A stretch of 64,000 nucleotides of DNA from Opitutia bacterium (GTDB lineage: Bacteria; Verrucomicrobiota; Verrucomicrobiia; Opitutales; Opitutaceae), in contig JACPIT010000006.1 of the NCBI GenBank assembly GCA_016187945.1, positions 62,001-126,000 on the forward strand, read 5' to 3'. Position numbers and translations under genes: made by a program. Shown in pieces: positions 11,834 through 28,425 of this stretch (position 1 is the stretch's first letter; each line of letters opens with the position of its first letter). The notes under the pieces are model-generated. The model was not told the origin of the DNA. It saw nothing but the letters and a program-made list of their open reading frames with translations, and searched no databases.

Positions 11834-12886
11834 ATGCCCGCCCCTCTCCCTGCGAAAATGCGCGCCATCGTGAAGCCCACCGCCGGCCCCGGTCTGATCA
11901 TGACCGAGGCGCCGGTGCCGAAGCCGGGCGTCAACGACGTCCTCATCAAGATCAAGAAAACCTCCATCTGCGGCACCGACGTCCACATCAACAAGTGGGA
12001 CAAGTGGGCCTCGCAGACGATCAAGCCGCCGCTGATCATCGGTCACGAATACGTCGGCGAAGTCGTGGATGTCGGCGCGGGCGTCGAGGGTTTTTCGCTC
12101 GGCCAGATCGTCACCGGCGAAGGCCACATCGTGTGCGGCCATTGCCGCAACTGCCTCGCCGGCCGCCGCCACCTTTGCCCGAACACGAAGGGCGTCGGCG
12201 TGAATCGCGACGGCGCGTTCGCCGACTACGTCGCCATCCCGCAGTCGAACGTCTGGAAGGTTCCCGCAGGTATGAACCTCGACGTCGTCTCGTGCTTCGA
12301 TCCGCTCGGCAACGCCGTGCACACCGCGCTGTCGTTCGATCTCGTCGGCGAAGACGTGCTCATCACCGGCGCCGGCCCGATCGGTTGCATGGCCATCGCC
12401 GTCGCCCGCGCGGCTGGCGCGCGCAAGATCGTCATCACCGACATCAACGACGGCCGCCTCGAGTTGGCGAAGAAACTCAACCCGACGCGCGTCGTGAACG
12501 TCGCAAAAGAAAATCTCACCGACGTCTGGCACAAGGAACTCGGCATGACCGAAGGCTTCGACGTCGCGCTCGAAATGTCCGGCAGCCCGCAGGCGCTCCG
12601 CCAGATCATCGACAACATGGTCAACGGCGGCCGTATCGCGCTCCTCGGCATCATGTCGAGCGAAGTCGCGATCGATTGGAACAAGGTTGTCTTCAAGATG
12701 CTTCACCTGAAGGGCGTCTACGGCCGCGAGATGTTCGAGACGTGGTATAAGATGACCGCGCTCGTGCAGGGCGGCATGGACATCACTCCGGTCATCACGC
12801 ACCGCTTCCCCGTCGAGCAATTCCAGGAAGGCTTCGAACTGATGGGCGCCGGCAAATCCGGCAAGATCGTGCTGAACTGGGAGTGA
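11834..12886 (+). CDS. tdh: L-threonine 3-dehydrogenase
   Basis: A 350-residue zinc-dependent medium-chain dehydrogenase that oxidises L-threonine to 2-amino-3-ketobutyrate with NAD. Catalytic-zinc residues are visible in SICGTDVHI and GHEYVGEVV. The structural zinc loop has four Cys ([15 protein letters not shown]), and the Rossmann loop is [20 protein letters not shown]. The ATG at 11834 gives the usual start. The product is labile and is normally handed to 2-amino-3-ketobutyrate CoA ligase, encoded at 14479-15669. The two genes are not adjacent here: an inverted two-gene unit lies between them. Confidence 0.95.
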
Positions 12887-12892
12887 GCGAAA

Positions 12893-12962
12893 GTAGGGCC
12901 AGTTTCCGACTGGCCGCTATCGCGGGTGCGCACCGAATAGGCCGGTCAGAGACCGGCCCTAC
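12893..12962. repeat. Intergenic palindrome, family R2
   Basis: Left arm GTAGGGCCAGTTTCCGACTG and right arm GGTCAGAGACCGGCCCTAC, loop about 24 bases, between convergent genes. The CTA at 12959-12961 inside the right arm is the stop codon of the minus-strand membrane-protein gene. Confidence 0.85.
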
Positions 12963-13714
12963 CTCAACAACCACGTCACCGCGGTCCCGACCGCGAGCGC
13001 GAGACAAGCCGAGAGCAACGTGCCGATCAGCACGTATTCCGCGAACGGCCGGTCATCGAGCGCCTTGAACCGCGTGAACGCCTTCGCCGCGAGCACGAAG
13101 CCGATCGCTCCATACTGGCCTTGCAGCACGAAGAAATAGAGCAGCGCCCGCTCGAGCAGTCCGATCACGCGCCCGCGGTTGTATTCGCCGACGTCGAACT
13201 CGGTCGCGCCCGCCACGCCAGTGCGCACCTGCGGCTTGAGGCGGAGCCAATCGAACATCGCGCGGATGATCAGATTCGCCTCGTTCGCCGCAAAGAGCAG
13301 GCCGAGCAACACGAGTTGCACGCGCACACTCGCCAGCGCCTCGGCGATCGCCGCCAGCGCCGACCAGCGCTCCAGTCCGCCGCGCAGCAAACTCCAGAAC
13401 GGCCGAAATTCCAACCCCGTCGCCGGCGACGCGATCACGCTCGCGACCGCCAGCGTCACGAGCCCGAGCACCATGCGCGACGAGTTCTTGTGCCGCCGCC
13501 AGCCTTCGAGCCAGGCGCCAGCGACGTTCAATCCCACGACGACGGCGAGCAGGACGATCCACGCCGCCGAAAACCGAAATAACAGCAGCATCGCCGCCGC
13601 CTCGATCGCCAGCTTGTTCGCCCAATCCGTGCCGCTCGGCGCGTCGTCGCGCAGCAACGTCACGAGCCGCGTGAGAAGCAGGACATTGGCGACCGCCAGA
13701 AACTCGAGATTCAT
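12959..13714 (-). CDS. Membrane protein coupled to SatD; C-terminus like DUF3307 proteins
   Basis: A 251-residue protein with about six membrane segments. Its C-terminal third (GRVIGLLERALLYFFVLQGQ, then AAKAFTRFKALDDRPFAEY and a final LIGTLLSACLAL helix) is the conserved tail seen in DUF3307-type proteins often encoded next to satD; the usual N-terminal DUF3307 motif is not evident. The ATG at 13714 overlaps the satD stop as ATGA, so the two proteins are almost certainly made together. A GTG at 13744 would add 10 residues. The stop codon lies inside an R2 palindrome. Function is unknown; the C-terminal helices look like a conserved functional module rather than a transporter core. Confidence 0.65.
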   Translation of the reverse strand: MNLEFLAVANVLLLTRLVTLLRDDAPSGTDWANKLAIEAAAMLLLFRFSAAWIVLLAVVVGLNVAGAWLEGWRRHKNSSRMVLGLVTLAVASVIASPATGLEFRPFWSLLRGGLERWSALAAIAEALASVRVQLVLLGLLFAANEANLIIRAMFDWLRLKPQVRTGVAGATEFDVGEYNRGRVIGLLERALLYFFVLQGQYGAIGFVLAAKAFTRFKALDDRPFAEYVLIGTLLSACLALAVGTAVTWLLR

Positions 13715-14343
13715 CGCGCTTTGATTTCCTCGTTCAACTGCCACGCGATTTCATCGAGGATGCGCTTCCATTCGTCAAGGTCGGCCGCCCGGATGTTTTT
13801 GTTCACAGCGCGGGTCGTGATGTCGGTCTTCTTCGCGAGTTCCGGCCCACTCGCGCCGCTCAGCAGCCCCGCGAACACCTCGAAGCGCTTCGGCAGCCAG
13901 CTCTCCGTAATGCCCGACAACACGGCCAGCGCGCCGCTCGGCAGCGTCCACTCGCCCGCATCGGTCGTCTGCACGCCGAAGAGCCGGCGCTCGTCCTTCA
14001 ACCGTCCCAGCAGCGCACGCGCGCGGTGAAACGCCGGCCCGTCCATCCCGATCGCCTGCGCGGCATTGACGCTCGTGGCCAGCGGCCCGGTCGCCACCGC
14101 GAAGCGCGCCCGCACCGGCGCGATCTGCGCCTGGATGCTCAGGATGTCCGCGAAGACCAGCGTCGCATCGCGATACACCGCCTGAAACTCGTCGCCGAGC
14201 GTCAGCGTGTAGGGTGAAGCCAGCGCCCGCCCGGCGCGCGTCGTGGTGGCCTGCAGCACGCCTTTCAAACGACGCTGAAACTGCGCCCGCGCCGGCAACC
14301 GGCGCGACGCCACCAAATCTGCAATCAGCACGGCGTATCCCAT
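13711..14343 (-). CDS. SatD family protein with C-terminal helix-turn-helix-like segment
   Basis: A 210-residue soluble protein. The opening GYAVLIADLVASRRLPAR and the central YTLTLGDEFQAVYRD are the signature of the SatD family, named from a streptococcal acid-adaptation locus and of unknown biochemistry. The LGDEFQ block resembles the metal-binding loop of nucleotidyl cyclase-like folds. The C-terminal segment (GPELAKKTDITTRAVNKNIR) has the spacing of a helix-turn-helix, so DNA binding is possible. It starts 12 bases from an array of three palindromes and is coupled to the membrane-protein gene at 12959-13714. Autoregulation through that array is an attractive inference but unproven. Confidence 0.75.
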   Translation of the reverse strand: MGYAVLIADLVASRRLPARAQFQRRLKGVLQATTTRAGRALASPYTLTLGDEFQAVYRDATLVFADILSIQAQIAPVRARFAVATGPLATSVNAAQAIGMDGPAFHRARALLGRLKDERRLFGVQTTDAGEWTLPSGALAVLSGITESWLPKRFEVFAGLLSGASGPELAKKTDITTRAVNKNIRAADLDEWKRILDEIAWQLNEEIKAR

Positions 14344-14354
14344 GGCCTGCTTAG

Positions 14355-14429
14355 GGAACCGTTTCGGTTCCTTTTGTCAATTGGGAACCATTTTGGTTCC
14401 CGCTAGGCATTTGGAACTAGATCGGTTCC
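14355..14429. promoter_or_regulatory. Array of three palindromes GGAAC(C/T)-N5-GGTTCC, exact 29-bp period
   Basis: Three 17-base palindromes lie at 14355-14371, 14384-14400 and 14413-14429. The first two are GGAACC-N5-GGTTCC; the third has GGAACT in its left half. Start-to-start spacing is exactly 29 bases both times, and the spacers are more AT-rich than the surroundings. The array covers the gap between the divergent satD (start 14343) and kbl (start 14479). Regular palindromes of this kind are typical of operator sites for a dimeric repressor or activator binding in a phased way. This would control satD and its partner, kbl, or both. Confidence 0.7.
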
Positions 14430-14478
14430 CACACCCTCGCCTTGCCTCCCCGACCGCGGCCGACCACCTTCCTCGCAA

Positions 14479-15669
14479 ATGAATTCCGGTTACTACGACC
14501 ACCTCACGAAAACCCTCGCCGAGATCGACGCCGCGGGTCTCTACAAACGCGAGCGCGTCATCACCACGCACCAGACCGCCCACATCGCCGTCGCCGGCGG
14601 CCAGCGCGTGCTGAACATGTGCGCGAACAACTATCTCGGCCTCGCCGACAATCCCGAGCTAATCGCCGCCGCGCGCGAGTCGCTCGACCGCTGGGGCTAC
14701 GGACTCGCCTCCGTGCGTTTCATCTGCGGCACGCAGCAGCTCCACAAGGAGCTCGAAGCCGCCATCTCGCGCTTCCTCGGCACCGAGGACACCATCCTCT
14801 ACTCGTCCTGCTTCGACGCCAACGGCGGCTTGTTCGAGACGCTGCTCGGCGCCGAAGACGCGATCATCTCCGACGAGCTGAACCACGCTTCGATCATCGA
14901 CGGCGTCCGCCTCTGCAAGGCGCAACGCTATCGCTACAAGAACAACAACCTCGAGGACCTCGAAGCGAAGCTGAAGGAAGCCGACGCCGCCGGCGCGCAC
15001 TTCAAGATGATCGCGACCGACGGTGTGTTCTCGATGGACGGCTTCATCGCGAATCTCCAAGGCATCTGCGACCTCGCCGACAAATACGGCGCCCTCGTGA
15101 TGGTCGACGACTCGCACGCCGTGGGCTTCATGGGCAAGACCGGTCGCGGCACGCACGAGCATTGCGGCGTGATGGGCCGCGTCGACGTCTTCACCGGCAC
15201 GCTCGGCAAAGCCCTCGGCGGCGCCAGCGGTGGCTACACCTCCGGGAAAAAAGAAATCATCGACCTGCTCCGCCAGCGTTCGCGCCCGTATCTGTTCTCC
15301 AACACGATCGCGCCGACGATCGCCGCCGCATCGATCAAGTGCCTTGAAATGCTCAGCCGCTCGACCGCGCTGCGCGACAAGCTGGAGGACAACACGCGTT
15401 TCTTCCGCGAAGGCCTGAGCAAAGCCGGCCTCACGATCAAACCCGGCACACACCCGATCGTGCCGGTGATGCTCGGCGACGCGGCGCTCTCGCAAAAATT
15501 CGCCGCGAAGATGCTCGAGAAAGGCGTCTACGTGATCGGCTTCTTCTACCCCGTCGTCCCGCAAGGCACCGCGCGCATCCGCACGCAAGTCTCCGCCGCG
15601 CACAGCAAGGACGACCTCGCCTTCGCCATCGAGAAATTCGCCGAGACCAAGCGCGAACTCGGCCTGTAG
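14479..15669 (+). CDS. kbl: Glycine C-acetyltransferase (2-amino-3-ketobutyrate CoA ligase)
   Basis: A 396-residue PLP enzyme of the alpha-oxoamine synthase family. It splits 2-amino-3-ketobutyrate with CoA into glycine and acetyl-CoA, completing threonine catabolism begun by Tdh (11834-12886). Family blocks are intact: [54 protein letters not shown] and the PLP-lysine in [13 protein letters not shown]. Its stop TAG at 15667-15669 runs straight into an R2 palindrome. The promoter must lie in or beside the palindrome array upstream, so it may be co-regulated with satD. Confidence 0.95.

Positions 15670-26005: not shown

Positions 26006-28425
<2,420 letters not shown>

Follow-up and report, generated by a model that had tools for sequence, protein, structure and literature searches.

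A tandem palindrome array before satD as a putative operator matched to the predicted recognition helix of SatD

Three phased palindromes lie between satD and kbl

Which protein reads the evenly spaced palindromes that lie between the divergent genes satD and kbl, and which of the two genes do they serve? We addressed this question in the window (the whole 64,000-nucleotide stretch analysed) and in satD loci of other genomes. Three 17-bp palindromes with an exact 29-bp period, as claimed in the original prediction, are confirmed at the following positions:

14355–14371, no strand: putative operator site 1, nearest satD; GGAACC-N5-GGTTCC, GGAACCGTTTCGGTTCC; included in the tandem pattern match
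14384–14400, no strand: putative operator site 2; GGAACCATTTTGGTTCC, 29 bp from site 1; included in the tandem pattern match
14413–14429, no strand: putative operator site 3; GGAACTAGATCGGTTCC, 29 bp from site 2; arms mismatched at one pair (GGAACT)

Sites 1 and 2 are perfect across 7-bp arms, and a single arm pair of site 3 is mismatched; the spacers are 12 bp each, with start-to-start distances of 29 and 29 bp. The start codon of satD (14343, minus strand) is 11 bp from site 1, and that of kbl (14479, plus strand) is 49 bp from site 3. The AT-rich pocket described for this region is real (G+C of 0.52–0.54 in 100-bp windows over 14300–14449, in a neighbourhood mostly at 0.59–0.75) but not unique, since 13700–13799 also has a G+C of 0.52. 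At 10.5 bp per turn, 29 bp corresponds to 2.76 turns, so that successive sites lie on different faces of the helix; cooperative binding at the array is plausible, with the 29-bp period out of helical phase.

The single motif is no commoner in the window than chance would have it (15 matches with up to two mismatches, against 18.7 in shuffles), and the signal is therefore the exact tandem triple. Across the 5.47 Mb of the same genome, GGAACN7GTTCC occurs at eight places, three of which form the window array, and the backward-read pattern at two. One of the other five has full GGAACC/GGTTCC arms and none is tandem; no further tandem copy was found in this genome outside the satD array. The stray full-arm copy, GGAACCCTTTTGGTTCC, lies at 1501–1517 of locus L001 (G000:C8:427335) in what we take to be rplD, and is probably a chance occurrence. 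A lone near-palindrome, GGAACCGAACGCGTTCC, also non-tandem, is present at 26971–26987 of the window.

The array goes with satD rather than with kbl

Searching 286 genomes of the class for the core AACC-N5-GGTT present twice, 14–18 bp apart, returned five places in three genomes (G000, G093 and G117), all directly before satD; the spacers at these five places measure 15–16 bp only, and the reversed control gave one place. The original prediction had set a phased operator against a motif occurring at random throughout the genome, and the class-wide search, in which the tandem stands solely before satD, speaks for the former. The SatD protein itself is matched in 9 of the 286 class genomes and its family in 10 of 387 phylum genomes, the genome of the window being counted in both, and no satD match was found in the 12 other genomes of the genus searched, several of which are incomplete.

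The position of the array might also suit an operator of kbl and threonine catabolism, with satD as an accidental neighbour:

14479–15669, plus strand: kbl (glycine C-acetyltransferase), the divergent neighbour; no motif at kbl in satD-less relatives
11858–12886, plus strand: tdh (threonine 3-dehydrogenase), separated from kbl by the satD module

Only those 49 bp separate site 3 from the kbl start, and the related loci L010, L011, L028, L029 and L032 have satD next to kbl; in the first four of these, as in the window, the satD module lies between tdh and kbl. Eight kbl loci were fetched. The region upstream of kbl was read in seven genomes of the genus, all of which carry kbl and lack satD: AACY-N5-RGTT is absent within 200 bp upstream of kbl in every one. 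Arrays, moreover, are kept where no kbl/tdh signature is seen near satD (for example, L012, L031 and L059). A role for the sites in kbl control is accordingly very improbable; because the tandem motif precedes satD and kbl upstreams that lack satD have none, the sites belong to the satD module.

In six of the seven satD-less genomes, tdh ends 4–133 bp before kbl; the seventh, L125, has no tdh tail within 1.5 kb of kbl. The segment 12959–14433 of the window, with satD and its membrane-protein gene, looks like an insertion: in those six same-genus genomes tdh and kbl, the genes on either side of it, are neighbours.

A 28–29-bp lattice recurs before satD in many phyla

To follow the array beyond the class, we assembled satD loci from contigs of many phyla, taking the best 80 of at least 541 confirmed by similarity to L011 and seeded by the pattern [ILV]TLGDEFQ; because of this choice, in which the motif is obligatory, the set over-represents the subfamily of the window. 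The SatD alignment (A2) holds 77 loci and the window; it leaves out L045, which has no full frame, the truncated L099, and L102 (278 aa).

A de novo palindrome test (17-bp window, six arm pairs, at least five of them paired, arms at least 8/12 alike) was applied to 79 of the 80 loci, L045 being left out. Palindrome pairs 28 or 29 bp apart occur in 40 of the 79 satD upstreams (100 shuffles: mean, 0.09; maximum, 1), and between 17 and 70 bp the only peaks in the distribution of spacings are at 28 bp (26 loci), 29 bp (17 loci) and 56–58 bp. A blind graded score for tandem palindromes at 28/29 bp is reached by 58 of 78 satD upstreams (the best 80 of at least 541, minus exclusions), by 0.34% of 2,340 shuffles and by 1 of 2,453 other windows in the same loci; when any of four other spacing pairs is scored instead, 0–2 of the 78 upstreams pass. 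The AACY/RGTT tandem is found at 62 places, all of them before satD and spread over 39 of 77 loci; these loci together span 584 kb, which contain no further copy.

Among the 58 passing loci, 55 have three copies, and the spacings are 29 bp (58 times) and 28 bp (55 times). They include loci from Pseudomonadota (19/26), Balneolota (8/9), Spirochaetota (6/6), Fermentibacterota (4/4) and Verrucomicrobiota (5/6), with weaker representation in Calditrichota (1/3) and Bacillota (1/2, the pass being L106, with a doubtful half-site). The 20 loci below the score include some with imperfect arrays and others, such as L040 and L107, in which no array was recognized.

We also searched 15 further loci at spacings of 18–70 bp, in this case without a shuffle control, and a 28- or 29-bp pair is among the best four in 12 of them, including alphaproteobacterial and haloarchaeal plasmids; two of the 12, L013 and L113, have a clear repeat and a weak palindrome. 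Eight plasmid records were considered, with Agrobacterium H2–H4 left out as having the same identity as H1. L024 yielded no palindrome pair at spacings of 18–70 bp. The motif that the original prediction expected upstream of satD orthologs is thus present there, by the blind score in 58 of 78 loci and in 12 of the 15 further ones, two of them weakly.

Other layouts were seen. In the haloarchaeal plasmid loci L114 and L116, four GTTCG..CGAAC palindromes form two pairs, 29 bp apart within each pair, before satD–DUF3307; the two SatD proteins are 94.5% identical and are therefore not independent loci. Before a distant SatD in L027, three TCCAA-N5-TTGGA-type palindromes with 22- and 41-bp spacing form a different lattice.

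Palindromes this short and regularly spaced might be a repeat element (REP- or CRISPR-like) or a product of chance. That reading is next to negligible: the genome has no other tandem copy, a search of 14200–14600 gave no Rfam match, and spacing and position are conserved while the letters diverge. Chance and a genome-wide repeat are ruled out by the genome counts, the spacing histogram, the class search and the graded-score controls; an RNA element was rejected on the Rfam result.

SatD is predicted to join a cyclase-like palm to a helix-turn-helix

13711–14343, minus strand: satD (210 aa), proposed autoregulator; PF16264 at 87.7 bits (cut-off, 29)
13906–14343, minus strand: nucleotidyl-cyclase-like palm domain of SatD, N-terminal residues 1–146, by predicted model and fold matches; D9, TLGDEFQ (48–54)
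13717–13893, minus strand: C-terminal helical/helix-turn-helix (HTH) part of SatD, residues 151–209, by predicted model
13786–13815, minus strand: predicted recognition helix, residues 177–186; R178 codon at 13810–13812, N181 and K182 following

PF16264 matches all 78 aligned members at E ≤ 1. The structural model of the window SatD (pLDDT 96.8, pTM 0.93) places HTH helices at residues 166–173 and 177–186. At E ≤ 1, HTH_23 matches 52 of the 78 members and Sigma70_r4_2 matches 34; for the window SatD alone, the HTH match is HTH_11 only, at E = 0.019, short of its cut-off. The N-terminal part of the model matches nucleotidyl cyclases, GGDEF domains, the Cas10/Cmr2 palm and the Panoptes synthase OptS; for the palm, the best Foldseek E value is 8.9e-5 (5mbg), and VIA gives Z = 10.2 with an RMSD of 3.1 over 123 aligned residues (3ur3). 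SatD is thus predicted to be a nucleotidyl-cyclase-like palm fused to an HTH.

D9 and D51 are invariant in 78 of 78 aligned members, as is the whole TLGDEFQ motif, D51 having itself been selected for by the scan pattern TLGDEFQ. D9 and TLGDEFQ presumably fall where the metal-site acids of the cyclase/GGDEF/Cas10 palm superfamily lie, and D9 and D51 would by position be putative metal ligands. The SatD of L014 lacks both D9 and GDEF, has an intact HTH and is preceded by three GAAC-N7-GTTC palindromes at 46- and 64-bp spacing; because HTH and palindromes are kept there without the catalytic motifs, putative DNA binding seems separable from catalysis.

Two other origins were considered and dropped. 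Viral contigs gave 25 pattern matches and no confirmed SatD relative, none was confirmed in phages either, and a phage or viral origin was set aside on these grounds. In PADLOC, SatD has no match at E ≤ 0.1 and the best partner match is at E = 0.029; assignment to a known defence family was rejected for want of a convincing match.

satD is paired with a membrane-protein gene

12959–13714, minus strand: partner, a 251-aa multi-pass membrane protein; start codon overlaps the satD stop codon; remote DUF3307 relative

By BLAST and profile, a membrane-protein gene (~230–270 aa) follows satD in 66 of 78 loci, often overlapping the satD stop codon. A suitable downstream frame exists in 72 of the 78; 62 of these 72 are matched by BLAST at E ≤ 0.01, and an HMM built from those 62 adds four. 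The window partner has no Pfam match, PF11750 (DUF3307) included; PF11750 matches 2 of 52 partners, with a best E value of 3.2e-18, and two haloarchaeal partners are annotated as DUF3307. Judging by our own alignment (A3, 51 of the 66 partners plus the window) and HMM, the partner is probably a remote relative of DUF3307. Its model (pLDDT 94.2) is multi-helical and has no beta barrel, and comparison with the PDB produced no clear match (no Foldseek match at E ≤ 0.001; best VIA Z = 6.9 at an RMSD of 10.1).

Half-site letters covary with the predicted recognition helix

The half-sites vary by locus: GGAACC in the window, and TTAACC, TCAACC, TAAACC, TGAACC and TGAAGC elsewhere. We computed mutual information blindly, in the 58 loci, between all usable SatD columns and the six positions of the half-site. 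R178–position 2 ranks first (z = 12.7), followed by K182–position 5 (z = 8.8), L115–position 5 (z = 8.4) and N181–position 1 (z = 8.1), and a redundancy cut at 60% (41 loci) leaves the same top four (z = 7.5, 7.2, 5.8 and 5.1). Residues 178, 181 and 182 are inside the predicted recognition helix; L115 is outside the HTH, and we infer that its rank is a lineage effect of four TGAAGC loci.

The blind half-site caller misassigns some of the 58 loci (consensus such as TAAAAA, AATCAA, ATAAGT and AATAAT), and these rows are kept in the counts that follow. At position 2, all 14 Arg178 loci have G (82/82 half-sites) and all seven Lys178 loci have C (38/42 half-sites). Gln178 accompanies A (eight loci) or C (five) and Val178 accompanies T (four) or A (three). 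Neither Ser178 (G 4, C 2, A 1) nor Pro178 (T 3, A 2) is specific, and of the 18 G2 loci, four do not have Arg at residue 178. Position 5 is G in five of six Gln182 loci, one of which (L090) has a doubtful half-site, and position 1 is A or G in four of four Asn181 loci and T in 47 of 51 Tyr181 loci. The window is one row of this table, with R178, N181 and K182 beside GGAACC. The code also fits four loci from outside the sample: Val goes with TTAACC in L010 and L011, and Arg with GAAC in L012 and L014.

Kinship was taken from a tree built on SatD residues 1–145 only, on which R178 and G2 change seven times each. Pagel's test of dependent evolution gave a likelihood ratio (LR) of 36.2–36.6 for R178–G2 (p about 2e-7), and 14.5, 16.5 and 14.0 for K178–C2, Q182–G5 and Y181–T1. 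Sixty control traits, sampled from 204 residue traits and run against G2 only, reached at most 12.8, and the LRs of the other three pairs stand little above that. Across supported branches, R178–G2 offers only two independent pairs, concordant in nearly all draws, so this contrast test cannot reach significance.

An operator next to a gene often has its regulator encoded elsewhere, and another DNA-binding protein of the host might bind the array and control satD, with SatD as the regulated product only. We regard this as improbable: the array, where tested, goes with satD and not elsewhere, and its half-site letters follow the recognition helix of SatD above other SatD columns and above phylogeny. 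The suggestion that the C-terminal HTH of SatD could be the binder is supported by this covariation.

The array probably serves SatD as an operator of its own operon

We read the array as the operator of the satD operon, bound by SatD itself and most likely repressing that operon, and assign this reading a probability of about 0.83. The computations show the array with its conservation and specificity, the covariation, and the HTH and palm folds as predictions; from these patterns, control of satD by its own product is very probable, and physical binding, the dimer, cooperativity and repression are what we infer beyond them. The promoter context bears on the direction of control:

14375–14380, minus strand: TTGACA, resembling a −35 hexamer, in the site 1–site 2 spacer; 17 nt upstream of the centre of site 1 (14363)

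This TTGACA is not followed by a good −10 hexamer, and no sigma-70 promoter pair passes the scan in the window. In 13 of the 58 loci, the window included, TTGAC has a palindrome centre 16–19 nt downstream of it (500 spacer shuffles: mean, 0.49; maximum, 4); because this count is far above the shuffles, which covered this one register only, one site appears to sit in the promoter core. The other 45 loci do not have the 16–19-nt register. The best sigma-70-like pairs, available in 37 of the 58 loci, have scattered offsets to the nearest palindrome, and we therefore claim no single promoter register.

SatD might instead activate transcription from the array, or its nucleotide-binding domain might make it switch in both directions. 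The promoter-proximal palindrome centre lies at a variable distance from the start codon (median, 38; range, 10–108; 58 loci), and TTGAC is at the edge of the palindrome in 7 of 22 instances, as such a role would allow. Against it stand the 13 loci with a palindrome centre within the promoter core, together with genetics in Streptococcus pyogenes that suits a brake better: in the available part of one study, 178 of 249 genomes carry satD, and no other accessory gene ranks with it in the top quarter for essentiality (PMC11323703). We consider activation or two-way switching rather unlikely. Essentiality in S. pyogenes fits a brake, repressor or guard, because losing one would harm the cell while the partner is present, and it hints at a guard or antitoxin-like role.

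Under the repressor reading, a SatD dimer would recognize each 17-bp palindrome through the C-terminal HTH, with recognition-helix residues 178, 181 and 182 reading half-site positions 2, 1 and 5. Three dimers 28–29 bp apart would cover the region of the satD promoter, and their most likely effect is repression of both satD and the downstream membrane-protein gene, an instance of negative autoregulation. At a spacing of 2.7–2.8 turns, neighbouring dimers would be rotated about the helix, and a cooperative contact between them would wind round the DNA. The N-terminal cyclase-like domain would probably make or sense a nucleotide that sets whether SatD stays bound.

Discussion

The SatD family, present in many phyla, is named only from a streptococcal acid-tolerance operon. 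Our analysis gives it a concrete proposed role, that of an autoregulating transcription factor with a cyclase-like domain, along with a defined putative DNA target in many phyla and a candidate residue-to-base recognition code. It also offers a testable explanation for a gene that, in the part of the S. pyogenes study available, is essential yet accessory (PMC11323703).

More tentatively, SatD and its membrane partner could form a self-contained guard module, similar to Panoptes or to toxin–antitoxin pairs, in which a cyclase-like sensor and a DNA-binding brake share one polypeptide; when the signal fails, SatD would leave the lattice, the operon would be derepressed and the membrane protein would act on the cell. 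We think this possible but doubtful. If it is true, the recognition code (178/181/182 to bases 2/1/5) would give each copy a private operator, and the module would be widespread in Bacteria and present in Archaea.

Neither an operator nor a DNA target of SatD is reported in the open literature searched, which did not include the S. mutans sat-operon papers. In the portions of the sources at hand, a Streptococcus suis table labels satD a 'DNA-binding protein' (PMC12005413), and satD is named in annotation, proteome, RNA-target or transcript lists (PMC10326533, PMC10210942, PMC12005413 and PMC5786311); the available part of PMC4886424 does not mention SatD. Autoregulated tandem operators and palm-plus-HTH regulators of the PucR type are already known, and the proposed system can be placed beside them.

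The S. mutans protein shares the PF16264 family name with the window SatD. Work on the sat operon of Streptococcus mutans, which concerns secretion and acid tolerance, reportedly named the gene after acid tolerance, and the literature searched yielded no operator or regulator role for the gene.

PucR/CdaR regulators such as MabR (Rv2242) appear close to the predicted layout of SatD, with an alpha/beta domain of GGDEF-like type and, behind it, a helical effector domain with an HTH (PMC11617747). The C-terminal fragment of Rv2242 (9f80) is among the SatD fold matches at E = 4.8e-3; the separate Pfam comparison covers 25 of the 94 matching families. SatD differs in belonging to PF16264, in its length of only ~210 aa, in its invariant D9/D51 (78/78) and in its operon with a membrane protein.

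Panoptes (mCpol/OptS with OptE), a phage-defence system with a decoy cyclic nucleotide, pairs, like the satD module, a palm-fold nucleotide-synthase-like protein with a membrane protein, and the SatD model aligns with OptS (9pd0_C) at Z = 9.4 and an RMSD of 2.4 over 105 residues. There, according to the accessible part of one report, a nucleotide restrains the membrane effector, and OptE is of the S-2TM-beta type (PMC12657218). The SatD module, unlike Panoptes, has an HTH and a putative operator, and the model of its partner, for which fold searches gave no clear match, is multi-helical, unlike OptE; the term SatD is absent from the main text of both Panoptes papers.

A close parallel for the regulatory arrangement is presumably with autoregulated HTH repressors that have tandem operators, antitoxins among them: in both, palindromes precede the regulator's own gene, which comes first in a two-gene operon. 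The proposed satD system is set apart from those repressors by its three-site lattice of 28–29 bp, by half-sites that have been rewritten repeatedly and by the predicted fusion of a cyclase-like domain to the regulator.
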